Below, piece by piece: positions 7,095-50,200 of a DNA stretch of 64,000 bases; within the stretch, counting starts at the first letter, position 1, and each line of letters starts with the position of its first letter. This stretch comes from Hydractinia symbiolongicarpus (lineage: Eukaryota; Cnidaria; Hydrozoa; Anthoathecata; Hydractiniidae): NCBI RefSeq assembly GCF_029227915.1, contig NC_079881.1, forward strand, positions 4,216,001 to 4,280,000. Reading direction: 5' to 3'. The notes beneath the pieces are model-generated. The model worked only from the letters and a program-made list of their open reading frames with translations. It did no database searches and had not been told where the DNA came from. Position numbers and translations under genes: made by a program.

Positions 7095-10000
7095 TTAGTT
7101 CTCCTTCTTGCTCAAACATTTCTTCACCTTGAAAATGAGATTCTTCACAGCGGCTGATATTAAAATAACAAAAATTACCAACGGAGGCGTAACAAGTATT
7201 ACATCTCGTACCCAAATGCAGATTATATCTATCATTTTAAAACCTGGCAACTCTATAAGGTCATACATATAATCCATAGCCCAAATTAAGTGAAATACAT
7301 TGAGAGTCAGCAACAGTGATAGCGACGCAGTTTCCAACCTGTTAAGTGCACTGCTGCAAAACGGCTGTTCATACCAGTGATGTAACAAGAATAACAGAAG
7401 CATTGGAAATGTGAAAAACGTTTTCAAAACAGGGTTTAATATGCATACACACATAAGTGAGAGAATGAGTCTTCGAAGTAATACAATGATTTCCCAGTTC
7501 ACTGAACCAGAGTTAGATTTCTTTGGTCGATACGGTCCTTGAAACAAACCAATAATTTGATCCTTCTCTTTCTTCTCGTTAAATGATTGATTTCTGTTAA
7601 AGTTAGGAATAGTGCTTTTTATTCTCAGGTAGCGATAAATGGCATAAGGAGGGAAAAAGAAGCAAAAGTAAAATTGCGAATTCGTTATATTGTGCTTAGT
7701 CAGCATTTTTTCAGAAACATAAGCTGATAATGGAAATGACACAATCCAGATGGAAAAGAACACCATGATAAGATATTGCCACCATGAATAACAAACAACG
7801 TCACCTTGTATGTACAAATAATGTGTGTCGTTTATATTGACGCAATTCATCATTTTTATACAGAATGCTGAGATTCCCGTGTAGCCCAACAATGCAAGTT
7901 GAATTAGGCATGATTTTATCTTTACTTGGATGTTTCTGTGGCCATTCCCTAATTCTTGGTCCTCCCTCTGTCGAGTTTTCCATGCTAAGTAAATTTCCCT
8001 TATAACGAAAGCTAAAACAAGAAATACCATGGCTGTTGGAATAGTTGATAATTTAACGACTTCTTTGCCGACCTTTGTTAGATTTTCACTGGGGCACAAT
8101 TTCGATAGCGGTACGAAAATAATTTGTAAATTAAACACAGATGAAATTGCTTTTTTTAAATTTCCCAAAACAGTTTTTTTTTGGTGATCGTCGTTGTTAA
8201 TTCGCAGTAAAACTTCGATTTGATAGAAGAAAAACAAAATGGTCTTTAGTCCAGAAATATTTTGTACCATGCCAACTTCTGCATTCCAGTTAGAAGTTGT
8301 GTAAAGCCCTTCTTGTGTTGACACTGTACTAATAATGACCGTACTGTCATCCTCTTCCTCCTCATCAGACATATCAAATTCACTATTGTCAAGCAAGGGT
8401 TCCATTAATGATTCTTGATTATCCTTTGTTTTCTTAGAACTTTTGATGTATTTTAAAACATACAAAAACACATTTTTGTAACAAAGGAGTATTCCTGTGT
8501 AGATGATTGCATAAAACATGTAAAGTACCCAAAAAGCGCGTTTCCAGCAATGTCGCTTTGATATACAGCTGTCATCGAAAAAATTTACTCGGTAACCAGT
8601 TGTACATGATCCACAGAGAACTCCCTCTCTATTGTTATTGCAAGTATTGTATGAAACACATTTAGAGTTTCCAGGTGAGCAACAGTACGATGGAGGACAA
8701 GGCGTAAATGTAACAATATCTCGCATTGGATAGCCCCAGAAATTACCACGACTAATTAACCCATTGTCACACTTTCCACCTGGGGGACATTTTTGGCATA
8801 TTACACCATTATTTGAGATTGTATTATTTTGATAGTCACGTCGTAAGATATGAAGATTTCCTTCATTTATCGTGTAAGTCAACTTTTTGCATCTAACACA
8901 ACGCAGGGTTGTGATTGCTTTAGCTGAGATTTCGACATTTGGCTTTGCCATTAATTTATACCGTCCATATTCTTCAAAGAATAGTGCGACATTGTGGTTT
9001 TCTGGACAACGGTAGGTAAAATCTTGCTTTTTAAATCTCATAGCTTCGATGCACTTCACATGACAAGAGAATCCTTCTGTCATTGGCCAATTTGGTAGCG
9101 TTGACGAAAGCCTCATGGTGACGTTCCAAAATATTGTAAATGCTGTTGAGTATATTAAAACACTACAGCTTAATGGAGAGATTGGTCCTCCGTATAAGGT
9201 AACGTTGTGCAGTTCAACACTCTTTAAATATAATGGTGGAAGGGGGTTTTCGATGTAAATGCTTCCGCCTTGCGAGATTGCCGAATTTGAAATAAACTTC
9301 GAATTCTTTATCAGCAATTTTGTCACACACCTTTCATAAAAAATTGCACCTCCCCGGGTTCCTGTGTTGTTAACAAAAACAGTTTCTCCAATAACTCCTT
9401 CACATCCTATTATTCGCAGAGCACCCCCGTCAATACCTTTATTGTTTTTAAAAACCGAGCGAGTTATGTTGAAATGTCTAACATCTATCAGGTGTATTGC
9501 TGTGTTTTGAAATCCTTTAAAGGTGCAATAAATTACACGAAACTGCAAATAATTCCTAACAACTAGTAAATCTGTCTTGCTCTTTGTGTTTATGAATGTT
9601 GTATTAAAGATGGTAACAACATGCCCTATTTTAAAAATTACTTTGCAGTATATCATCAACACGAATTTACTTTTGAAAAGACAATTTGATATAGTGACAT
9701 TTGCTCTTCCATAGACTCGGATTTCTGTTGTATTTTGGGCAGTACTATTAAATATTTTCAAGGCCGTAGAAAATAGTTTTAAACTTGAATTACTAAACTG
9801 GCAATGGGAGATCTCAAGATTTAGGAAATATGTCTGTTTTCTACCCAAACCTTCTTCCAAAAAGTTAAAGGAACTTTCAACAATGCAGTTTTTTAACTTT
9901 ACATTCATACTAAACTCAATAAAAGCTAACGAAGCATTATGGAATCGAATTCCATCTATTCTTATGGTGTACTTATTCTGACATTTAAACAGATATGGAT

Positions 10001-12945
10001 AACCAAGTTCTTGCCAATTTGGGATAAGAATTGTTGGATGGATTCTCCCCGTGCTTTTTATGGTAACGTTTTGATGTAGAACAAAAGTTGAATTAACTTC
10101 ATACGTAAAGGGGTTTAGTACATCCTCTCCTCCATCTATTTTTATTGTTAACTGTATCAGCATCCCATTGTTTCGAAGGACGTACCCCACAGAACTGCAT
10201 GGAGAGGCTGGATCTTGCCCACAGTCCTTTTTATCATTTCCATTACGTTTTGAAATAAATATGTCGGTCGAATCTAAAATAAAACGTCCTGCAGTAATAT
10301 GGAAACAGTATTGAAATATAAAACAAAGTATATACTAAAATTAATATAAGGATCTTTGAATAAATATTTTAAAGGACAAAACGTCTATTTTAAAACAATA
10401 GATAAATATTATACATGAAGCTCCCAAAAGATGGTTATTTTTGTTGGTTGCTTTTTTGTTGGTGTGTTTGATTTACCCTGTACCTGAATGTTTACAATAT
10501 TTTTTCTGATACGAATGCAGATTATAAGCTTTTTAAAGTACCATTAAAATCTGACCTGTGGGTGGGTGATCTTATTTTTGAGCTTTTTTCAACCTGTTTT
10601 GTCTTTATTTTGTTATGAGCAAACACAGCTGCAAAACTCATTTTGTTCCTATTTATAGAATTGTTCGAAACGGAACTTTTTGTGTTTGTGTCAGAGAAGT
10701 AAGTGTTAAAGTGGCTGTCAAAATGGGGGTCGAAGCGGGTGTTTTTGTTGCTAATGCTCCTTTATAATAATGTTCATGAACAGTCGCACCTATATCAATA
10801 CCAATTTTTTACTTTTATTTTAAGAATAATAAAGTATTTTTAAAAAGACAACTAGTATTTAACCATCAAAAACTTCAAACAGAAAGTGAAAATTTGCTTT
10901 AGAACTAAAGTAATTGAATTTTAAGCAGATAGTGGTATTTTGGAGACATTTCAAGCTTTCTATGACGTCACAGTGCTGACATTTATTGCCGCCATTTTTT
11001 TAAATTTGAGCTTTTTTCAGTCTAATTTAATTCTTATTCCGTTACAACTTTAAAATCCAGACTAAATATTTTTTCCAAAAATTTATTTATTTATTTATCC
11101 GTTATTCCGAGAATTTATCCGGTTTTCTATATACGCAAAATGAGTGTTTTTGCAAGCGGAGCTCTCTGGTTATGTTTATGAACGATCGAGTAAATATAAT
11201 TATTATTTTTGTAGTTATTTAAGTGGGAAAGAATCGACCCCAAACAAAAATAAAAAATTTGCATCCTTGATTGTTTATAAATAATAGCAAAATTCAGAGT
11301 CGGGTTGTTTGCAGTTTTAAAGATCATGGTCTCAGCCTGAAACTGTTTTTATATTGTTCTTATTTTCCAGCCAAATTTGAGACTCGTGTTCTTATAAAAT
11401 TGTTCTTATAAACAAAAAGAGTTTAGTAATTTTTACGTTTAAGGATACGGTAACCTCCTGTGACACATACTCAGTATATTTAAAATATCTCCTCTGCTCG
11501 CTATATTAACCCTAACAAATATATATATTCGGAAAGCCAAATAAATTATCTCTAGAGTGATGATAAAATAATTATATACAAAAATTCACCCTTCCAGTTT
11601 ATTTTGTCGAACACTCCCCTCAGTAAAGTTTTTGTTCGTGGAAAAAAATATCATTGCGAAGCTCCTATTCAGCTCTATAAAACCTTGCTTTTTTTTACTC
11701 AAAACAACACGTTGTTCCGCAAATATAGCATATTTTGTGTTACAATAGCTGTTTTATCTATTTTTAAGCATGATAGATCAATAACTCGATATTTCCTTAC
11801 TCACTACGTTAGAGAACTCAAAGTTTTGTAGCCAAAGATATAATTGTCGCAACAAACTTATCTTCGTACAAATTCGACAAGATTGAGGGGAGTGTTCGAC
11901 AAAAATATATACTGTTACGACTGAAAATTTTATTTTGAGAAAAAGTAAATCAAAGATCTTTGCTTTTGCCTGCAAAAATCACGATAAAGGAATGTGACAC
12001 CCATTTAAACGCTATGAATAATTAATAACTCCTGAATATTTTATTAAAAATTAAAGGAAAGTATTTTCGCAGAATTTTGGGTCTTGTTATTGCTAAACAG
12101 ACAACAGGATAACATAACATAACAGGATAAAAACGAAAATAAATAAATAAATAAATCAAAAAGGCATAGATAATAACTAATAATAAACTTGTATAGATTA
12201 TTAAAGTGTGAACGTTTCGTGAAGATGCAATTTTTTATAACTCTCTTAAATTATCATACAGATATAATATATGGAATTTTAAACTTTGAGCACACTATTG
12301 AAAACACTACAAGATAAAAAAAATAATTTTTCTCATTTTATCCCTCTTAACAATATTTATTTTTGATTTTTTTAAAAAAAAAATATCAGGAAAATATGCC
12401 AAAGAATCAAAATTAAAAAAATATTTTTTAGAAAAAATTACCCTAAAGGGGGTTACTGTATCCTTAACATAAGAAATAATATGGCATGATTCACAAGTTG
12501 TTAACAACATGATTTCAATGGTATATAGACATTCAGAAAGAATGAAATATCCTTTCCATTACAATAACAAAATAATCCCTGTTGCTTTTATTCTCTTCAT
12601 AGGTTAACCTTACATAATAATTTCATAAAAAATACAAAAATGAAAGTATGATGTTCTGCTTATACTTTATCTATATTATAAAACCCGTATACGTCTGTCC
12701 GTCTGTCACGCACAATGGTAGCTTAGCTGCGCAAGTAGCGAGACGCACGCAGTACAGTATAAAAAGAACGGGCGAACCCGTGGAATTTTCCACGGGCTAA
12801 CGACTACTTTATTATATTTATTTTGTGTTTTTTTATTGATAGAGGACTAAAATTGATGTACACAGTTGTTGTACTAACCTGCCACAGGAATGAGCACAGC
12901 TGTTGTTATTGTCAGGACATGAATGAAAGATATTTTATAGAGCAT
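7095..12945 (-). CDS. Beta-helix / Cys-rich multi-pass membrane protein (receptor-like)
   Basis: Two-exon gene. Exon 1 is 12945-12879: ATG, a hydrophobic signal peptide, donor GTTAGT. Exon 2 is 10273-7095, with acceptor TTTTATTTTAG. The intron is phase 1 and the product is 1081 aa. After the signal peptide (about 1-22) comes a right-handed beta-helix region (about 50-420) with GGAL/GGAI/GGSI motifs near 305, 330 and 358, of the kind found in polymorphic-membrane-protein repeats, and many N-glycosylation sites. A cysteine-rich module follows (about 445-597; CPPGGKC, GVLCGSC), like ephrin-receptor-type GCC2/GCC3 modules. Then come about eight to ten membrane segments (near 602-630, 764-782, 810-830, 852-875, 948-965, 970-988, 1003-1022 and 1036-1062), with an acidic cytoplasmic loop near 650-666. 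It is predicted to sit at the cell surface; ligand and signalling output are unknown. A broken paralogue lies at 43.6-50.6 kb. Confidence 0.85.
11602..11904. mobile_element. MITE with 21-bp perfect terminal inverted repeats
   Basis: The 21 bases at 11602-11622 (beginning TTTTGTCGAACACTCC) are the exact reverse complement of 11884-11904. The 260-bp interior is AT-rich and non-coding. Target-site duplications are unclear because the flanks are low in complexity. The element lies inside the receptor gene's intron. Confidence 0.6.
12670..12807 (+). mobile_element. 138-bp non-autonomous Helitron
   Basis: It starts TCTATATTATAAAACCCG directly after an A/T-rich target and contains the CTGTCCGTCTGTC tract. 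It ends with a hairpin at about 12777-12796 (arms CCCGTGGAA/TTCCACGGG), then CTAACGACTAC followed by T. The last base differs from the usual CTAG of the family. It lies in the receptor intron near exon 1. Confidence 0.6.
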
Positions 12946-19183: not shown

Positions 19184-21064
19184 CTAATACTTTGTTTTTT
19201 CAAATTCGTGTAGAAAAGGAAAAAGAGCAAAACCATTTCGGTGTGGTAAACAAACAACTTTTCTTTTCAACATGTTTTTTGGAAATTCTTTTCGTTTACC
19301 AGTAATCTTTTCAACAAAAAAGTTATTTAACAAAGATGATTCTGCTGGTGATTTGTAAATACTTCCAAGGCTGCAAGGTTTTAAAACTGTCCCAATTATT
19401 TGGTTAGAATGTTTTTGAGCTTCATTAACAACACAAAACTTTCCTGATTCAAGTAAAAAACAAGAATCTTTCAGGTGATCAGCAGAGATGAATGGGGTGG
19501 GTTTAGACTTTTCAACCAAAGAAGACAATTCACTTTCTCGTTTGATAACTTGGGCAACCGGGTTATTATTACTTCTAACATTTTTTTTCAACACCTGCAT
19601 ATAATTTTCAAATTTGAAAGCTGATAGGTGGTTTAAGGAACTTTGAAAATTTTCAGCATCGTCACATAAGTGGATCAATGAGTGGACATTGTAAGAGATA
19701 AATTTTCTTCCATAAACATCTTTTGATTTACTGACAAACCAGAGTAATAATTCTCGACAATAACCCAAAAGTCGATAACGAGATTGACTAGAATCATTTA
19801 GAAGGATGCTCATTGAAATATGAAGACCAAGGAAGTGTTCATACACATTATGAGAAACAATCCCTTTCAAAACAACTGGACCAAGATATAGCAAAAACTG
19901 CCTGAATTCAGTTGCTTTCCAGTATGGAAGATCACGTAAGGGCCTTGGTTGACGATTAAATTCTGTTGGCATAGAACCAGAAATATTATTCAAGCGAGAA
20001 GAAATTTGTGAGATGTGATTAGATGATAACCTGATTTGAAGTGGCCCTTTAGTTAAGAACTGCAACATACGCTTCATCACTCCTAACAACACAAGGTGCA
20101 TATAGTCCAATGTAAACTTTGACACACAATCAAAATTAAGCTGAGAGACTAATGGACTGATACATTTCTGGTGTGGATGGTATAAAAATTGTTTAAAATG
20201 TTGATCGTTCCTTGCTATTTCTGAACCATCATGAAGAAATACTACTCGGTTGTCAATATACTGGCCTTTTATATTACACCTCTCACATGAATAATACCCA
20301 GTATGACCGACTACACACTTCAAGAAAGCTCTTGCCGGTGCATCACATACAAATGCTTTTAAAAAAAATTGAAATGTTTTTTCCTCAACTTCCAGGCCAT
20401 TTATCTGAAGAAAATTTACTTCGTTTAAAAAATCTTCCAAAAATTCATTTGTAGAATTGGGCTTTGAGGTGCCATGATAGAGAGCAATAACAAAAACACT
20501 GTCAGAGTTGTTCAACGAACCAAGGATCGGCCATAACTGTGATTGAGATGACTTTGACAAAGGAAGGCCATCTATGTTTACTGTCAAAAAAAGATTGTTT
20601 TCATTCATAAGACAGTGGTGAAGTTTTAACATCTTTTTCACTTGTTTAACAATACCAACATAAGAATAAATTCCACCACATTTATGAGCAGTTTCGACAT
20701 GACGTGGTGTTTCAAGTAGAGTTCTACTATCTGCAGGAAGTTCAGTCATGCCATGTTTACGTAATATCAACAAAAGTTGATTTAAACACTCTCTGGAACA
20801 TCCACTTTTAGCTGCCCATCGTGAAATGTCAGATAAAATTAATGATTCTGGATTGGTCACTGTATCCAGACTGTTATACAGAATTTCATTTTCATTTGAT
20901 GAGAATGAGGAATCTAAAGGCTCGTCATCACAACTGATACATCTATCATTTTCATTGTCAGAAGGATTGCTTAACAGGTCATGTTGATCACTATCTTCAC
21001 CGTTTAAAATCTCAACTTTTTGATTAACCAATCTCCTTTCTTTGCGGAGACGGGAATCATTCAT
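19184..21064 (-). CDS. CACTA/EnSpm-like transposase
   Basis: An uninterrupted 626-aa ORF. I chose the ATG at 21064 (MNDSRLRKERR) because it lies just inside an acceptor (ATTTTCAG before ATACTGTC), although the frame stays open to 21181. Visible landmarks are NIDGLPLSKSS (Asp near 165), FVCDAPARAF (Asp near 241), a CERC zinc pair (260/263) and LDYMHLVLLGVMKRM (near 319-333). The last is the D-x-H-x3-LG-x2-KR block typical of the Tnp2/CACTA-like transposase family of animals. The product should bind transposon ends and catalyse DNA cut-and-paste in the nucleus. The reading frame is intact, so the copy may be young. Family assignment rests on motif memory; other DDE superfamilies are less likely. 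Confidence 0.75.
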   Translation of the reverse strand: MNDSRLRKERRLVNQKVEILNGEDSDQHDLLSNPSDNENDRCISCDDEPLDSSFSSNENEILYNSLDTVTNPESLILSDISRWAAKSGCSRECLNQLLLILRKHGMTELPADSRTLLETPRHVETAHKCGGIYSYVGIVKQVKKMLKLHHCLMNENNLFLTVNIDGLPLSKSSQSQLWPILGSLNNSDSVFVIALYHGTSKPNSTNEFLEDFLNEVNFLQINGLEVEEKTFQFFLKAFVCDAPARAFLKCVVGHTGYYSCERCNIKGQYIDNRVVFLHDGSEIARNDQHFKQFLYHPHQKCISPLVSQLNFDCVSKFTLDYMHLVLLGVMKRMLQFLTKGPLQIRLSSNHISQISSRLNNISGSMPTEFNRQPRPLRDLPYWKATEFRQFLLYLGPVVLKGIVSHNVYEHFLGLHISMSILLNDSSQSRYRLLGYCRELLLWFVSKSKDVYGRKFISYNVHSLIHLCDDAENFQSSLNHLSAFKFENYMQVLKKNVRSNNNPVAQVIKRESELSSLVEKSKPTPFISADHLKDSCFLLESGKFCVVNEAQKHSNQIIGTVLKPCSLGSIYKSPAESSLLNNFFVEKITGKRKEFPKNMLKRKVVCLPHRNGFALFPFLHEFEKTKY

Positions 21065-22165
21065 TGCCCAAAGTGACAGTATCTGAAAATTTAGTTGAAG
21101 GTTTGTTTCAAATTTAAAAAACAAAATGTATATATATATAAATTTTATTTTACCAAAACATGTTTTCATTAATGACACCAAAATATAATTAGTTTTTAGT
21201 TATGTGGTCTCTTTATGTATGTTGATATTATGTAAACATGGCATAACTGAACTTTCTGCAGATTAAAATCACTCTGAAACACCTGGACAGTGTCATGAAT
21301 GGTAAATATGAAAAATTGACTTTGTTGATTGACTGGTAAAGGAAGAAAGGCGGAGGGCAGAGCTTCCATTGACAGTTTGTACCGAAGAGCAATAAGACAG
21401 GGTTAGGATTAGAGTTAGATAAAGATAAAATTAGACAGTATTTTCCATTTAGCTTGAAGTTAGCTAGCGTCCTATATAGCTAGGTGCTACCTAATAACTA
21501 ATTAGCTAGCTTCAGCAGTGTATAACAAAAACAAAATATATACATTTTCTCAATTTCTTTCAAGGTTAAAAGAAATAGTTTTTGTCTAAAAATAAAAGCA
21601 TATAGAATAAAAATAACGGTTCCTTCATTAAACACCAAAACCAGAAAACAAATTTGATTTCTTTAATATTTTCTTTCCAGTCTTTGTCCTTTTTTTTGAC
21701 TACTGGCTGGCTAGCTGGGTTTGCTTGTTTACATATCGCCATCTTTCTGTAAAAGATGGCCGGGACCGACTTTTTGTGTCCAGGGAAACCGAACACGAAT
21801 TTGACCTTTAGACTTAGTACTAAAAACCGCTGTACTCTATTCCGAGAATCACAAAACAAAAATACTTACTTTTTAAACGACCGGTATCCCGCAGATGCTT
21901 TCATGAAACTACCGCCAATTTTTATTGAGTGTTCCAATGGTCAAGTGTCAAAGAATATCCGTCAGGGGGTGCAGGAAAACAAAATTACGACGTAATGAAA
22001 TAAAAACGTATTATAAAGGGTCGCCAAAATACATTAGTATTTAAAAATAATTAAAAGTGACAATTACCACTTTCAATTTCGTGAAAAATTGATTTCCTAC
22101 AAAATAAACATGCTAACTAAGTTTGCGAACACCCCCGTTATTTTAAATCGAATTTTCCATATAAA
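21065..22165. other. Upstream region of the CACTA-like gene; inner element boundary
   Basis: This should contain the transposase promoter and the right end of the inner element. ORFs at 21566-21859 and 21756-21995 overlap on opposite strands and resemble nothing I know. I looked for terminal repeats matching 16045-16640 and found none, so the exact end of the CACTA-like insertion is open. Confidence 0.35.
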
Positions 22166-22505
22166 AAATCGAACGTCTTTTAAAAGACGCATTTTAGACC
22201 ACTTTTAGAAGTAGGAAAAGACGTCTTTTAAAAGACGCGTTTTAGATGCATTATAGCAAAAAGAGAAAGACGTCTTTTAAAAGATATATTTTAGATAACT
22301 TTTAGATGTCTTTTAAAAGACGTCTTTTAAAGATCTTCTAAAAGACATCTAAAATGCGTATACTACAGGATTCGCATTTATTTACTTTCAAAAGACGTAT
22401 AAAAGATGTCTTTTGAAAGACGTTCTTAAGAAGATGCATTAAAGACATCTTAATAGCGTTTTCTAACAGAAGATTAAAAAAAGACATCTTAAGACGTCTA
22501 AAAGA
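22166..22505. repeat. Subterminal palindromic GACGTC array, inner block
   Basis: Repeated CGTCTTTTAAAAGACG and AAGACGTCTTTTAGA motifs of the same type and orientation as the block at 15580-16044. It is followed directly by CACGGCTGTTTCAG...GACTGCGCATG (22506-22542), the counterpart of the right inner end at 28412-28459. This continuity is the main evidence that the two array blocks were once one array. Confidence 0.7.
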
Positions 22506-23333
22506 CACGGCTGTTTCAGAGCGGAAACTAAGACTGCGCATGCGTCAATAATTACGGCCACGTTGAGGCGCAAGATGGCGGGCGCAAATAAAAACAATCA
22601 TGATAAATAAGTAACTAACTTTTTGAAATCGCTTTTGCATGATAGAATCTATTTCAGTGGATTTAATTTAGTTTTTTAAAGCATTTCAACACGCTGGAAG
22701 CTAAATCTTTCTTTTACCTTTGCGACAAGCATGCTGTTGGAGTAATACTGTGGCAGTTTTGAAGGCATACTTTTTTTTGTTAAAATTAACATGGCAACTT
22801 GTTCCAACTAATTTTTGGTTTTGTGGACGTTGCGAAGTTATGTGGCTGGTGTATTATATATTTTTGGAAAGCTGAAAGGCTCATCTACAAGGTAAGAAAA
22901 ACGAAAAAACTGTATCAGTACTTCTGAAAGAATGCTAGAGCGCTGAATTCTGGCAATAAAAGTTAGTGTAAAACCTGAAAATTTTAACTCCCTCTTTGAC
23001 ATAATCTACTGTATGATTTATTGTAGGCATTAAAACTGTTGTAGTTTACTAAGCTAATATTTCACAGAATAACAACACTAAACAACATTCTATATAAACA
23101 ATTCTGTAACTCTAAATAAGGTTTCTGCGTCTCATACACTACTAACGTAAGCTCGACAAAAAGTCAAATAAAAATGAACTATGCATGTAGTAAGCTAATT
23201 AACTGTTCAATTCTTTTTCTTTCTAGACCAGCTGATCCACCTTTGAAATAATGCAAAGACTAAAGGAGCTTGCAAAGTAATGCTAATATGCAGTTAAAGA
23301 TATAACTAGCTATCTAAGCTGTAAGTCTAAAAG

Positions 23334-26300
23334 TTATTCTTCACGTGCAATTTTTCTTTTTTTAATTTTTGGTTTTAATTGGCTCGATTCAGGATTTACA
23401 TTAACAAAATGTTGCTTTAATGTATTTCGTAACCGCTCGACTGGGTTTTTGATGCAGCTGTACCTGCTCGACATCCTGTTGATTTCATGATGCAAGCTTT
23501 CTCCACCTTAAAAATGTTATAATTTGACATTTAAGCTAGCTAGCTACACATTTTCTGAAAAATAACACATTTTGGTAAAAAACACAAATTTTGGTGTTAC
23601 CAGGTTACAAATTTAAGTGGCTGTTTACCTTGTTCGCCATAAAACCCAAATCCAACATTCCATTTTGCTATGAACTCAGTGACATGATCTTCAAGCATAT
23701 GCAGTTTTGGTGAAATATTAACTTTTGGCCAGTTAGTTCGCAGATGCATCATGAATTTATTAATTGAAATTTCTAGAATTATGTACTATATGTATATTAT
23801 TCTTTCTTTTTGTTTTGTTTTTGGCACATGAAATTTTAAAAAAAACTTATTTATTATTAAAAAAAGGAACAAGTTTCTCACCTAAAGCCAGTATTTCCTC
23901 ACATGACAGATATTTTGCCGAATTGTAAATGTTATGAACTTCTGCAAAGTAAGTAAATAACATGTCGTACTTATCCATTTCTAAATTCACACTGTGAATA
24001 AGCTGGTCATCATGCTTTTGTGCTGCAACAATCTCTTTAATGCTGGATGTTAAATTTTGGATGTTTTCTTTCTATAAGAGCAAGATTGTTTTTTTAATTT
24101 TCTTTAAATATGTTATTTTTAAATTGCTACATTATTGTTAGTATTAACAAACCTTTAGCAATTTATGTACATGGTTGCCGATAAAACTTTGGCCATGGTA
24201 GGCCTGACGTTCAACACCCATTTTTTGCAGCGTTTTATCTATTGAAGAAGCACAAGGACCAACACCTAAAATAAGATGAACAAACTATTAAACATAGCTT
24301 TAGATTGGAGAGAATATAAGGCTTGCATCATAAGATCAGAATGAAAATTATAATTTTGGAAAGTTTTTTTTCGGGAATTAAATTTCTTGGAATTTCCAGA
24401 CAAAAAAACATTTGCGAATATCACAAAAAATTACTTAGGTAATAAAAATGATCATACCCACTAAAATTCTTTTGTTGTTTCCCAAGGTTGAGATTTCTAA
24501 TTCTAATTCTGTGATTTTCTTCTCAGTTTTTATTATACTTTTCTCGTACGTCAGTATATTTCGTTGTAAGCCACCAGATATTACAAGCCAGTTTAACTGA
24601 TCTTGCTGGTTTGCTAATTTGGCTTTTTCATCTTCCAGCTTTTGCTGCAAGTCATTTGTTTCTTTAAGGACTTCGATGTAGTCACCATAATCTGAATCCA
24701 GTTCATTGTCTTCTGTTGCCAACAGCAGAGCTATTTTTACATCATAGTCTTGGCAAGAAGACTCAAACATTTTAAACATCTTTTGATATACACCCAAGGA
24801 AATATGAAGACCAGGAATACAGACCTAAAATTAGGTGTTTATATAGATTTTATTTTGGGATTATTAAATCAACTTGCAGTGGAAAAGCATAAAAATATGA
24901 TGTATACTTGATCAATAGGTATGTCAAAAAATATGTTGTCAATGACATTATAAAATTCTTTCGCATTTTTAGGGCTCCCACCACTTTCACGGAAATCTGC
25001 TAAATTTTCTTCAAGTGTCGCCAGTGACCTTTTCTTAAATTTCTTGCGAGTAAACACTGGGATGTTCATTAGTTTTGAGGTAATGTTGCAAAACAAACAG
25101 CTGTGACGCCCTAAACACAAATGTTAAAGTATACATATTTTATTAGAAACTTTTAAAAATAAACCATTTTTAACTATGCATTTCCCATATCCGCGTAGTA
25201 AAAACCCATTGTTAAACTACAGGAACTTTATGAAGTTGCAAAAAAAGTTCTGTAAAAATTAATTAATTTTGATTATCAACTAGCAACTTGCCCCAGATCT
25301 TAAGTAATTAATATTTACCATTTGCACCAGTTATACCATACATTGCACACAGAAATTCGTAGTCGCCATACATAAATACACGGAATATCGACTCTTTATA
25401 TTTGACTTGTTGCAGCATTTTTATTTGTGGTCAAAAATTAATTAATTTTGATTATCAACTAGCAACTTGCCCCAGATCTTAAGTAATTAATATTTACCAT
25501 TTGCACCAGTTATACCATACATTGCACACAGAAATTCGTAGTCGCCATACATAAATACACGGAATATCGACTCTTTATATTTGACTTGTTGCAGCATTTT
25601 TATTTGTGGTCGAAACCGTTCAAGGCAGACTCTTAAGTTTGTTCTTGTGTCTTTCCCTAATTTAAAAAAAAAATATAAAAAATGTTTTGATTTCTACTTT
25701 AGATCACTTAGATCATTTCTACTTTAGATCACAATTAGACATCACATGCATAGAATTTTGGAAATTCCAGTTTTAATTTTTTTTTTTTCATATTTGTAAT
25801 ATATTGCATTAATGTTTGTTACCTTCAAAAATGCTAAACATTATTGTGTTTTCCTTCTTGTTTGGGTTTAGAACATTGCCTATTTGATATGCCATTTTAA
25901 AACTATTTCCTCCATGGTCTCCACCAATTTTAACATGGATCTCATTGTCAGGAATGAAACTATGTTTTACAAGTAAATTGTGACATTCTAGCTTTTTGAG
26001 TTGATACAGAATGTGGCCAACTACATTATACAGATACCCCCAGGGCCTAGGTATAACGGATACCCTGTTTCCAACTGATAATTTGGTGAGAGGAGCCAGC
26101 TCAACTCTCAGTCCTTGGCCTACCCATTCAGCAGCGACACTTCTTGCTTTTTTTTCTGATTCAATTTTTATGTTGAATGTTTTCAACCAACGTGATATTT
26201 CACGTAGTTGATTCCATGGCATGTTTAAATTTGATTTCATTGCTGTGATGTGATTGGCTGGAATAATGACTTCTGTACCCAAATTTTTAATGATAGTATT

Positions 26301-27978
26301 TCTGTCACTTTCTTCCATAGACTTTAGCAGTGCTGTGGTCTGTTTTGTGACAGATTGGGTTTCTTCACCAGACATCAGATGGATTAACTCCTTGGCTGTA
26401 TTTGCTCTTTTCCGCACATTCCTTTCACATGTTTCATCAGAAGACTTGCGAGGAATTCTAATGGGTGTTATTGTCAATGGCTAAAATATGGAACATATGT
26501 TATTAATTTGTTTTATGTAAAATGTAATATTACTATTAAAATTATCATATTGTTACAGACAATTATGTGTACATTATTTTTAATATAACATAGCATAGTT
26601 TTGTATTTTTGTATAAAGTAGTTATACACATTTTTTATATAAGATCACTTAACGATGTAGACGCCTTAGCATTTAGGGTGGGCACATCAAAATTTTAGTA
26701 AATCTCCTAATATATAGAATGGTTTTTATTGACCCCCAAAACTTCCTATATTCTGTGACCCCTCTAGCCACTTACTTATATTTATTATTATTTTTAATTA
26801 TTTACTCTGAACATTTTAAAATTTGTCTTGTTCTTATTATGGCTTGTTTTTTGTATAAAAAATGTGTATAAGAAACATTTCACTGGAATTGTAAAAAAAT
26901 GATAACCTAGGTATGCACATATATAGACATATACAAAAGCAACTTATTTTCAGTTTTGATTTCAGCCTTAAAATTGCTAAGATCAAAATTTTTTGCTTTA
27001 TCAGCCGTTTGAAAATCAGTTGCTTGTTAAAAAAAGTCAATGTCAAATCACTTTTACTGAGTCCACTCCATACATAAGTAATCTTACTTGTGAACTTCCA
27101 CTGGGCAATTGGACAGTTTTATTCGGCAAGTTTGACTGCTGCATTTTTATTCCAACCACATGAGCAATGCATTCTTCTACCTTTTTCGGTACAGGCTTGG
27201 AAGGGCTCAACTGCATCATCTCTAGTGTTGTAAATGACAATGCTGGAGAGCATGTGTGCGATTGTGCAGACAGCAGTTTAAATGAACAACCACATGTTCC
27301 CTTGACAACTCGTGTGTTTAAAATCCTGGAAATGCACAAACCAGGCGAGACATCCCCGGGTGTTGTTGGGATGCTGCAGGTGGGACATCTATTTGAATTT
27401 TCCAACCAATTTGTTAAACACAAGGCACAAAACACGTGGTTACATTGGTTTATCATTAATGGCCTTTTTAAAATATTGCTACACAAAGCACAAATCAGAT
27501 GTTCCCAGTTGCCTTCACTGATATTTATGTCTGAGAGAACGTTTCCACTATAGTCAAAAAGTTCAGAGGTTTTTCTGTAAATTTTATTAAGTTCTAGGGG
27601 TGTCCAAGTTTTTTCTGCGGAATCCACAGCTTTGTGTGTTGGGTTACCACCGCCCCTTCTTTTCATAGGTTTGCCACCTCTCTTTTTTTGTGCACTTAAT
27701 ATGCATGTTTTGCACTCGGTGTCTTTATGTGTATACCATTTAACAGGCACAATAGCGGTAGCTGAGTCACGTTTTAGGACATTACTTATTGTAGCAAAGC
27801 ACGAGTGACAGAATTTTTTTGGGTGAATGCCTGCCCGATCAGAATAAAAATCAGCTCTGAAAATACTGTCCAAGTTCTTTATGTGCTCTTGGACAATATG
27901 TGATCGTCCAGGCAGAGTGTTTCCACATATTCGACACAGCTTGTTCAACCGAGCTAGGTGTAAATCCCCAGTAGCCAT
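23334..27978 (-). CDS. RAG1 N-terminus-like/RING transposase (N-RAG-TP type)
   Basis: Nine GT-AG exons: 27978-27088, 26480-25823, 25656-25498, 25110-24908, 24824-24458, 24265-24153, 24071-23882, 23772-23629, 23506-23334. All phases join, giving 965 aa with no stop. Residues 1-100 carry the RAG1-type zinc region (CRICGN at 15-20, IHPKKFCHSC at 51-60, CKTC at 89-92). A C3HC4 RING follows (C163, C166, C179, H181, C184, C187, C198, C201). The transposase part has candidate catalytic residues D485 (GGDHGG), D555 (MYGDYEF) and E911 (GGESLHHE), a CLFC zinc pair, HISLG, and a coiled coil near 682-752 between the second Asp and the Glu. It should cut and join its own element's ends in the nucleus; the RING may act in ubiquitin transfer, as in RAG1. 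I recall the fold combination from the molluscan N-RAG-TP elements; the family name is from memory. Confidence 0.85.
25254..25611. repeat. Perfect 179-bp tandem duplication spanning part of an exon
   Basis: Bases 25254-25432 and 25433-25611 read as identical. Each holds the 3' part of exon 3 of the RAG1-like gene plus its donor and the intron start. The upper copy is the functional one because it is continuous with the exon's acceptor. The lower copy (exon-like part 25319-25432) has no acceptor and should be removed as intron. Confidence 0.85.
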
Positions 27979-28411
27979 CTTGAACTTTAACAAAAATTTT
28001 GAAAAAAAAGTACCTAATGTTTGATACAATATCAATTCGTAATGTACTGATACACCTACAGTTCTTTTTTTATTCGTATCTCGTAACTATCTTGGAATGA
28101 TTTTTATAAAAATTATCTGTGGGATAACTTCGTATCTGAAAATATTTTGCTTTAAGTTGGCATGGTGTCCACAGTCTTCAAAATGGAGGTTGAAAGTTTT
28201 TGTTTTGTTTTAGCTAGGCAACAAGCGAATAGCTTTGTATTTGAATTAATCTTATTGGTATAGGACTATATTTTATTTAAACCACTTAGTTTCCAGTCCT
28301 TAAGTTGGTTTATGTGATTAAAATGCCTATTAAACCTGGTGCTAGCTACCCTAAAATTTGTTTACTTTTAAGCGCAACTCGCCCCAGTCCTTATTTTAAA
28401 TTTTTTTTTGA
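27979..28411 (-). promoter_or_regulatory. Upstream region of the RAG1-like transposase gene
   Basis: This is the 430-bp stretch between the chosen ATG and the right inner terminal repeat, so the promoter must lie here or in the terminus. An in-frame ATG at 28035 would add 19 residues. I preferred the ATG at 27978 because its product starts close to the conserved CRICGN motif. No clear TATA box was identified. Confidence 0.4.
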
Positions 28412-28480
28412 CATGCGCAGTCTGAGTTTCCGAAATCTCGCTAGCTGAAACAGCCGTGAAGACGTCTTGTGCCGGCTGGG

Positions 28481-47285: not shown

Positions 47286-50200
47286 TTAGAAAAGTTGTCA
47301 CAAAATTGTTTTTTATAGATTCATTGGATGTTTTTGTGTCAAAACATAAGGGAGTTGATCAAAAAAATTGTGGATATCAGTTGTACCCACCCTGCAAATC
47401 ATTGGATTATGCCTTTGGAAACAGAGACGGTGCGTCAAAAATTGTTTTTAAAATAGACGGCGGCGATAATATGTTAAAGCCATATGTTTACATTGCAAAG
47501 AGCTTACAGTTTCTTGATGCAGATATTACAATTAAGAAAACTGGAAATGTTCGTCCATCAATCGTTACCTCAAAGGACATTCAAACTACTTTATTTACTA
47601 CGCTTGGAGGAGGAAGAATTTTAGAAGTAAATGGCATTCAATTTTACAATGTATCTTTAATTGCTATTGGGTGTGCAATGACCGTCAAAATAATCAACTG
47701 CATTATTGGCAATGGAATTCCTTTTATACATGTTTTCACTGGACCTGCATGTGGATATGGGCCAAACAATATCGATATCTTTAATTCTGAACTTAATAAT
47801 TCATATTTACTATTAAAGCATAAAGACCATCTGAAAGTAAACATATTTAATACAAGTGTTAGTAAAGCAGAGAATGGCTATGGCTTTCTCGTTAAAGAGG
47901 GACATGGTACTCTTGATTTAAAAATTTTGAACTGCATTGTAAGAGATGAGATCAGTATTAATTCCAGCTTTAAACAATCCAGGAAATCCAATATTCTTAG
48001 AAAGGTAAATGTATCGAATACGCAGTTTATTGGAAATAACACGAACAAGTTTGCAATAAAAGTTTCCCATTCTACTCTCGTCAGCATAAGACATTGTCTC
48101 TTTCAAGGCTATACTGATACTGCTATTAGATTAGTTGGTATTAATTCATTTAGGATTATTCATTCAAAGTTTATAAAGAACAGCGGGATTTTAGGGGGCG
48201 CTTTGTATGCAAAGGAAAGCGCAGGTATTATCACAAAAAGTATTTTTTTTAAGTAATACGGCACAAAATGGAGGGGCAATTTATTGGGAACATGGCTCCA
48301 GATTATTTGCAATTAAAGATTCGAGATTTATTTCAAATCAAGCAAGACTTTCTGGTGGAGGTATATATACTGGCATCCAGCAAAAAGGTAGAGGTGCTGA
48401 AGTTTTGTTACGCAATGTTACTTTAAGAGGATCAAAATCGCCAGAACTTTCAGGTATTCTAATTCATTCAATGGCTCCAATAATCTTGAGAAATGTCAGC
48501 ATGATAGTTGTGATAACGTTACCTGGTTGGTCAGAAACCGGATTTTATTGCAGTCGAGGTTGCAATATAGGTACTTTCAATAAAAGTTATGAATACACCT
48601 ACTCTTGTCCAAAAAACCATGACGTTGAACCAGTTTTTACAGAATATCAGAGAAAAAGTGTAATTTCAAAAATTCAATGCATCAGATGCAAAAAAACAAC
48701 CTATACAGAGCGGAGGGTAAACTTCAGAATTTTGCACAAAGAAAATAACTCTTCAGTTGTTGGTGTTGATCTAAAATGTCGAAAATGTCCATTGGGTGGA
48801 AATTGTGATGGCCGAATAACTAGTCGAGGCAACTTTTGGGGATACCAATCAATGACTAATCATGGTATACTATTTATATCTTGCCCTTTTTTGTATTGTT
48901 GTTCAGCCCACGGCACAATATGTATCTCCTATAATACTTGTGGAAAAAACAGAAAAGGAGTTTTATGTGGTTCCTGCATGCCTGGGTTTAGGGTAAACGT
49001 TTTTGACGGTGAGTGTACTGCAAAAAAAAGTTGTTGGAAGTACTTGTTTTGGCTGCTTTGCACTCTTTACACTATCATTTACACGGTTTTTTTGTTGTAC
49101 TACAAAGATGTATTTCTGTTTATTTTAAAGCACTTTAAGAGCTTAAATGAGAAACGGAATAAAAGAGATTTAACTGAACCCATTATTGAGAACTTATCAG
49201 ATAATACATCCCAATATGAAGAAGTATGCGAAAAGTTTAAAGCTACAAACGAAGCAAGTGAAGATATTAATCAGTCCAGTACGACAAATTATGATTTAGA
49301 TAACTCCAAGGAATCAAAAGATGACATCGATGTTACCAATGAATCAAGAAAACCACATACTTCAACACATTTCTTGAACGCCAGCACCTCAAAAAATATT
49401 GAAGGAGTTAAAACAATTTTGTTTTTCTTTTATCAAATTGAAGCTTTGTTACAAATCAAACAACATGGCCAAGAAAATCAAGCCTTTTTGGACTACAGTA
49501 GGAAGATAATTTCATCGGCGCTCAATTTAAAAGTTATATCTGCTAAACTCTCAAAATTATGTCCAAGCGAAAACCTTACGATCATTGGTAAGGAAATTGT
49601 TCAAATTGCTACAATTCCATCAGCAATGGCATTTCTTTTTCTTATTCTCTTTTGTGGAGCACTTCAAAAAAAGGGGAGAAAAAGGAATAAGCCAAACGTG
49701 CTGCCAACAAAATATTCAAAAAGATTTCAAACAAAGGTGAAGTTATGCATAATCTAACTTACGTTGTTAACCTACACTGGTGTTTCAGCATTCTGCTTGA
49801 AGATGGTAAATTGCGTCAATATTAACAACACAGGTCACTTGTACATACAAGGTGATGTTGTCTGTTATTCATGGTGGCAATATCTCATTATGGTGTTCCT
49901 TTGCATTTGGATTGTGCCATTCTTTTTCACGACATATATGTCGGTAAGGATGCTGGAGAAGGGGACGATATCTGTTACACAATTTTATATCTGCTTTTCT
50001 TTTCCTCCATATGCAATTCATTAATACGTATGGAGAAGAATTGCCGATTTTGATTTTAACGTCGTTAAACGATCTGACGACAAAAAAGAAAAAGATGGCA
50101 TCGTGGAGTTGTTTACTAATCCATACCGAATACAGTCATCGACAAACAGCACAATGAATTGGGAAGTTGTTGTGCTAATTCGACGTCTGATCTTATCTGC

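Follow-up and report, generated by a model that had tools for sequence, protein, structure and literature searches.

A probable young Chapaev-superfamily transposon of Hydractinia symbiolongicarpus with a RAG1-like protein layout and terminal signals offset by one helical turn

The published hallmarks of Chapaev transposons are a DDE transposase, termini of CAC/GTG and target duplications of 3–4 bp (PMC4079192). The Chapa domain is reported in Chapaev, with a RING following it in two subgroups (PMC4411706), and a C(2)C plus H(3-4)H motif is given as common to Chapaev, Transib and RAG1 (PMC12730594). Hydra is among the species abbreviations of the published Chapaev tree (PMC4079192); in the main text of the Hydractinia genome paper (PMC11067881), neither Chapaev nor RAG1 occurs. 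As regards the origin of the 12/23 rule, the ends of ProtoRAG are 27/31 and those of most Transibs symmetric (PMC8289069, PMC8355894). Some Transibs are described as having 12/23-like ends (PMC8355894).

The locus described here lies in a stretch of 64,000 nucleotides from Hydractinia symbiolongicarpus (the window). It is probably a young, autonomous DNA transposon of the Chapaev superfamily, with a RAG1-like layout and bipartite ends offset by 10–11 bp, whose short and long ends are presumed to pair. An earlier note, made from the letters alone, had placed the sequence in a cnidarian genome, which is supported by a profile match (P0011) named Hydractinia symbiolongicarpus. The nine exons that it joined in phase are borne out: on the minus strand (27978..23334) they give 965 aa and a stop codon, with GT-AG at all eight introns. 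Its coordinates fit the gene (23334..27978) but were too narrow for the mobile unit, the ends of which had been missed (Table 1).

Table 1. Features of the transposon, in window positions
Feature	Position	Strand	Remarks
Whole mobile element	22506..28458	.	5953 bp, termini CAC...GTG; boundaries common to near-identical copies with different flanks
Target site duplication, left copy	22502..22505	.	AAGA
Target site duplication, right copy	28459..28462	.	AAGA
Short end, 3' side of gene	22506..22542	+	outer block CACGGCTGTTTCAG, inner block GGAAACTAAGACTGCGCATG; GCATG from 33
Long end, 5' side of gene	28412..28458	-	outer block CACGGCTGTTTCAG again; inner block GGAAACTCAGACTGCGCATG displaced inwards by 10 bp; GCATG from 43
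Exon 1	27088..27978	-	aa 1-297; Chapa/RAG1-type zinc region (~27939-27670) and RING (27492-27376)
Exon 2	25823..26480	-	has a stretch aligning with RAG1 up to and including its first catalytic D; codon of D485 25919-25917
Exon 3	25498..25656	-	D555 codon 25543-25541, opposite RAG1 D708 (mouse numbering)
Exon 4	24908..25110	-	C574-x2-C577, 19 residues past D555
Exon 5	24458..24824	-	
Exon 6	24153..24265	-	
Exon 7	23882..24071	-	
Exon 8	23629..23772	-	H885-x4-H890; E907 (23635-23633)
Exon 9	23334..23506	-	E911 (23501-23499) and stop codon
Exact tandem duplication of 179-bp unit	25254..25611	.	exon 3 end and intron

Intact, otherwise near-identical copies of the element differ in whether they carry one, two or three of the 179-bp units at the end of exon 3, with one unit at loci L013, L020 and L023 and three at L011 and L012. 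The element adjoins an array rich in GACGTCTTTTAAAAGAC palindromes (window 22170–22500). Just outside it lies an open reading frame of 665 aa (19184–21181, minus strand), 626 aa of which gave no Pfam match at E 0.01. Other long open frames in the window are at 7095–10190 (minus strand, 1031 aa), 47306–48256 (plus strand, 316 aa) and 48207–49757 (plus strand, 516 aa).

Copies were sought throughout the genome (assembly of 480.9 Mb) with a 601-bp query across the right flank, which gave 40 scored matches in all. Elsewhere in the genome, 23 right ends match at 100% rounded identity and stop no more than 4 bases from the same base – 24 dispersed, near-identical right ends with the window copy. Weaker matches comprise 4 right ends at 83–95% (one partial) and more distant ones. 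Twenty of the 23 near-identical loci were compared with the window copy. Both ends are present in 20 loci of this set (20 loci and the window), with a perfect 4-bp target duplication in 20/20 and a 5-bp duplication in 0/20; the flanks of L011 and L012 are identical, so there are 19 independent insertions. Exons, splice sites and frame are all kept in 17 of the 20 loci (16 with 0–1 amino acid differences, one lacking 4 aa), while three copies are deleted (L015, reduced to its last 508 bp, L026 and L028). The earlier note's young, intact copy is supported, and near-identical copies, which it had proposed to count, do exist in the genome. Judging by these sequences, the family, here called A, has moved recently.

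The two ends of the window element carry the identical outer block CACGGCTGTTTCAG, but the inner block GGAAACTnAGACTGCGCATG begins at position 18 of the left end and position 28 of the right end. A genome-wide search for this outer block with CTGCGCATG 4–30 bases behind it gave 65 matches, most of them family A copies, whose length is without exception either 37 or 47 bp; the reversed pattern has no match genome-wide. Three diverged relatives (L029, L030 and L031) keep the end spacing. Target duplications are perfect 4-bp repeats in L030 and L031 and imperfect (GGTT/GGCT) in L029, an older relative.

PF12560, the Pfam model that matches the N-terminus of the window protein, matches 60 places in the genome. 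The ends of a second family, B, were defined by comparing two copies (L032 and L033). Families B, C (L034), D (L036) and G (L039) were scanned for ends with CAC at both termini, a 4-bp duplication free of mismatches and, at any position from 26 to 55, the inner motif; this motif was chosen after A, B and one end of C, and the spacing rule was set before L039 was examined. The scan gave one candidate at each of the five loci (L032, L033, L034, L036 and L039), with GCATG at 33 on the 3' side and at 43–44 on the 5' side. In 400 shuffles of L032, L033, L034 and L036 there were 2 candidates, none with the 33/43–44 spacing, and the window outside the element gave no candidate. Three further loci (L035, L037 and L038) had no candidate with GCATG at both ends. 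L035 has a 5' end only (43) and no 3' end, and in L037 (family E), where the stretch breaks off within the core, the 5' end alone (44) is seen. L038 has no core match, and eight looser motifs gave one candidate there, 34/47, which does not fit the rule. The family C copy, L034, sits in a satellite of ~200-bp units (its first ~2150 and last ~770 bases), the orientation of which flips near 760.

The inner motif includes GCGCATGCGC, which we take to be an NRF1-type palindrome. The pattern CACG-N15..45-GCGCATGCGC has 481 matches in the genome (4 for a reversed control). Among the 100 matches listed, all on two contigs (C1 and C2), GCATG stands at 33 in 12, at 43 in 12, at 44 in 11 and elsewhere in 65; with 65 of the 100 at other distances, the inner motif alone is common rather than specific. 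The same 100 contain ten convergent 33/43 pairs, three of which recur through a second CACG 7 bp upstream, and one 44/38 pair that does not fit the rule; pairs of 33/33, 43/43 or 44/44 do not occur among them. The ten 33/43 pairs, which belong to families H and I, have a perfect 4-bp duplication in 10/10 and a 3- or 5-bp duplication in 0/10, and shared flanks make them seven independent insertions. In family I (C2:28350095-28355867), a Chapa match at C2:28355057 shows which way the gene runs, with the long end at its 5' side. Different loci with identical 10-bp flanks (L011/L012; L046/L048; L050/L052/L054) suggest segmental (or assembly) duplication after insertion.

Across all seven families in which both ends were seen, GCATG begins at 33 in the short end and at 43–44 in the long end, and in all six with a placed gene (A, B, C, D, G and I) the transposase has the long end on its 5' side. 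A 23-bp block, at 18–40 of the short end, recurs at the long end with a shift of +10 in families A, D, H and I and +11 in B, C and G. The two ends agree at 19–23 of its 23 positions in the seven families, and no other shift reaches more than 13. The inner block is family-specific yet common to both ends, as would be expected of a site read by the transposase, and the short/long pair would, we infer, be required for recombination.

All of these families come from one genome and share ancestry, so they are not independent tests of the spacing, and the ends of H resemble those of D, so the families are not all independent of each other. A 10-bp insertion or deletion in one ancestor would be inherited, and the offset of 10–11 bp could then be a frozen accident, kept by descent without any pairing rule. 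This is unlikely, since the spacing has stayed at 33 and 43–44 while the sequences around it diverged. The outer blocks of the two ends agree at 8–10 of 14 positions in six of the seven families, and identity between the N-termini that A, B, C, D and G encode is down to 26–36% (the DNA of A–D aligns in short patches only, of up to 201 bp; G was compared as protein only). The inner blocks, for their part, are family-specific and still match between the two ends.

It is still less likely that GCGCATGCGC is a host promoter site, presumably of NRF1 type, and goes unread by the transposase. The 5' side does need a promoter, and the many CACG-N15..45-GCGCATGCGC matches at other places (481 against the control's 4) would agree with such a role. 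However, the motif also occurs on the 3' side, its distance from the cut site is fixed, and the likeness between the ends spans the whole 23-bp block, including its family-specific bases. In the C1 and C2 listing, GCGCATGCGC is frequent beyond these transposon ends too, and promoter and transposase sites may overlap.

The protein supports the earlier reading of a DDE-type transposase. The residues proposed as its catalytic triad (D485, D555 and E911) are all where they were said to be, and the two aspartates are invariant in 8/8 aligned rows (window protein counted), but it is uncertain which residue is the third acidic one. The stretch concerned is contained in 6 of the 8 rows, all of which have both E907 (GEQG) and E911 (GGES), and in a sub-threshold HMM alignment to RAG1 (score -2.7) E907 adjoins RAG1 residue 962. 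C574/C577 and then H885/H890 lie between the second aspartate and E907/E911, which as a sequence motif is C(2)C plus H(3-4)H. In the hhalign alignments, D555 stands opposite a residue that we take to be RAG1 D708 (mouse numbering). With both profiles shallow, D485 falls opposite the second D of CDGMGD in one run and opposite K in the other, and in neither opposite RAG1 D600.

RAG1 was the best match in a fold comparison, for which the model was made of the homologue P0001 (without a RING) and not of the window protein. On hhalign and this model, the core is predicted to be homologous to that of RAG1. Compared by sequence with solved structures, the core found nothing related (2 weak matches, best E 2.4). 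PF12940, the RAG1 core model, had no sequence match; the Pfam listing, with E up to 10, comprised 21 families and did not include it. PF06918 (DUF1280) was listed for 14 of the 15 homologues P0001–P0015, and PF12940 for none. PF06918 spans the first part of the RAG1-like core (aa 373–540 of the window protein; also in P0001, P0006 and P0010) and looks like an unlabelled Chapaev transposase model.

At the N-terminus, the zinc motifs CRICGN and IHPKKFCHSC are both present, and the RING reported as complete C3HC4 is so (aa 163–201; PF13923, 44 bits, cut-off 27). In a Pfam search of the 965-aa protein, PF12560 (RAG1_imp_bd) scored 26.2 bits against a cut-off of 23.3, and this match is the proxy by which the Chapa zinc domain of the Chapaev superfamily is recognized here. 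With phmmer against solved structures, aa 38–229 are collinear with RAG1 156–357 in one stretch (whole-sequence E 1.4e-13). The family profile matches the RAG1 N-terminus at E 2.6e-10, with no significant RAG1 match outside the N-terminus. From these three matches the N-terminus is RAG1-like beyond a generic RING, and the RAG1-specific match that the earlier note had proposed to look for was found (PF12560; phmmer to RAG1 156–357). RING columns are absent in five of seven homologues (P0001–P0004 and P0007), so the RING comes and goes among them.

A reading of the protein as a RAG1 N-terminus joined to an unrelated transposase is not supported: hhalign and the fold comparison point to a Chapaev transposase with a RAG1-like core. 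The suggested use in tracing the N-terminal module of RAG1 stands in part, the element being one more Chapaev with a layout published in 2015, but a young and multicopy one. The Chapa, RING and core layout has been in print since that year (PMC4411706) and is therefore not new.

Target duplications are of 4 bp in 20/20 family A loci and 10/10 H/I pairs, within the 3–4 bp of Chapaev, and the ends are CAC/GTG as in that superfamily. A RAG-like (RAGL/Transib) transposon, which would be a direct cnidarian relative of the RAG1-RAG2 element, could also have the RAG1-type N-terminus, the CAC ends and RAG1 as best fold match (of the P0001 model). This reading was rejected on the 4-bp duplication (5 bp in 0/20 and 0/10 loci) and is very improbable: the 21 Pfam families listed (E up to 10) do not include PF12940, the homologues carry PF06918 (14/15) and never PF12940, and the list of open reading frames holds no second long frame, though a spliced gene could escape such a list. 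That this is a domesticated host gene is scarcely credible, since its long reading frame is intact but 24 near-identical right ends (window counted) are dispersed with differing target duplications.

For the Chapaev element, the following mechanism is proposed. The transposase would cut at CAC and hold the inner 23-bp block with a region that corresponds to the nonamer-binding domain of RAG1. One short and one long end would be paired, under a rule like 12/23 that joins two different ends of one element. The flanks would be cut, probably through hairpins as in relatives, and insertion would follow with a 4-bp stagger. The RING, a putative ubiquitin ligase or dimer part, would probably modulate activity.

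A more speculative possibility, doubtful but worth stating, is that signal pairs offset by one turn are older than RAG, with short/long pairing present by the time of the ancestor common to Chapaev and RAG/Transib. If so, V(D)J recombination would owe its 12/23 rule, along with the Chapa-RING-core protein, to deep transposon ancestry, and the symmetric ends of Transib would be a derived state. An intact, multicopy relative with the RAG1 layout and strict 33/43–44 ends allows the question of whether a RAG1-like transposase, apparently without RAG2 in the element, can enforce short/long pairing. The same element, whose host is a hydroid cultured in laboratories, also suits work on the protein region that recognizes the inner block and on the role of the RING.

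The offset ends are the new and more informative part of this work; the Chapaev family and the domain layout were already known. No report of a conserved one-turn offset of Chapaev ends was found in a search that covered later literature in part, with the original Chapaev papers outside it, and it may be recorded elsewhere. PMC4079192 nowhere uses the word 'symmetric' or one related to it. Chapaev elements with Chapa and RING (PMC4411706, PMC4079192) share with this one, as described there, the CAC/GTG ends, the 3–4 bp duplication, the DDE transposase with C2C and H(3-4)H and the Chapa and RING N-terminus, and the present element differs in its conserved one-turn offset of the inner block and in being a young, intact, multicopy family. 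Transib (HzTransib) differs in its 5-bp duplication and in that most Transib ends are given as symmetric (PMC8289069), and it is without the RAG1-type N-terminal region (PMC7204232). The P element has transposase sites 9 and 21 bp from its terminal repeats, already likened to 12/23, but has a THAP/GTP-binding transposase and an 8-bp duplication (PMC7776569). N-RAG-TP of Aplysia (Panchin and Moroz, via PMC8355894) is alike by description, as a RAG1 N-terminus-like protein in a transposon. The 12/23 signals of RAG1/RAG2 and the ends of ProtoRAG (27/31 bp; PMC8289069) resemble this element in having CAC where the cut is made, two-part signals whose spacers come in two lengths and a collinear RAG1-like protein; the duplication is of 4 and not 5 bp here, and the signal sequences are other ones. 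No RAG2 was seen here in the list of open reading frames, in which a spliced gene could be missed. In geometry, the ends of this one element carry signals of two lengths one helical turn apart, as in the 12/23 type. The nonamer of 12/23 signals begins at 20 or 31, close to the starts of the inner blocks described here (18–19 and 28–30).
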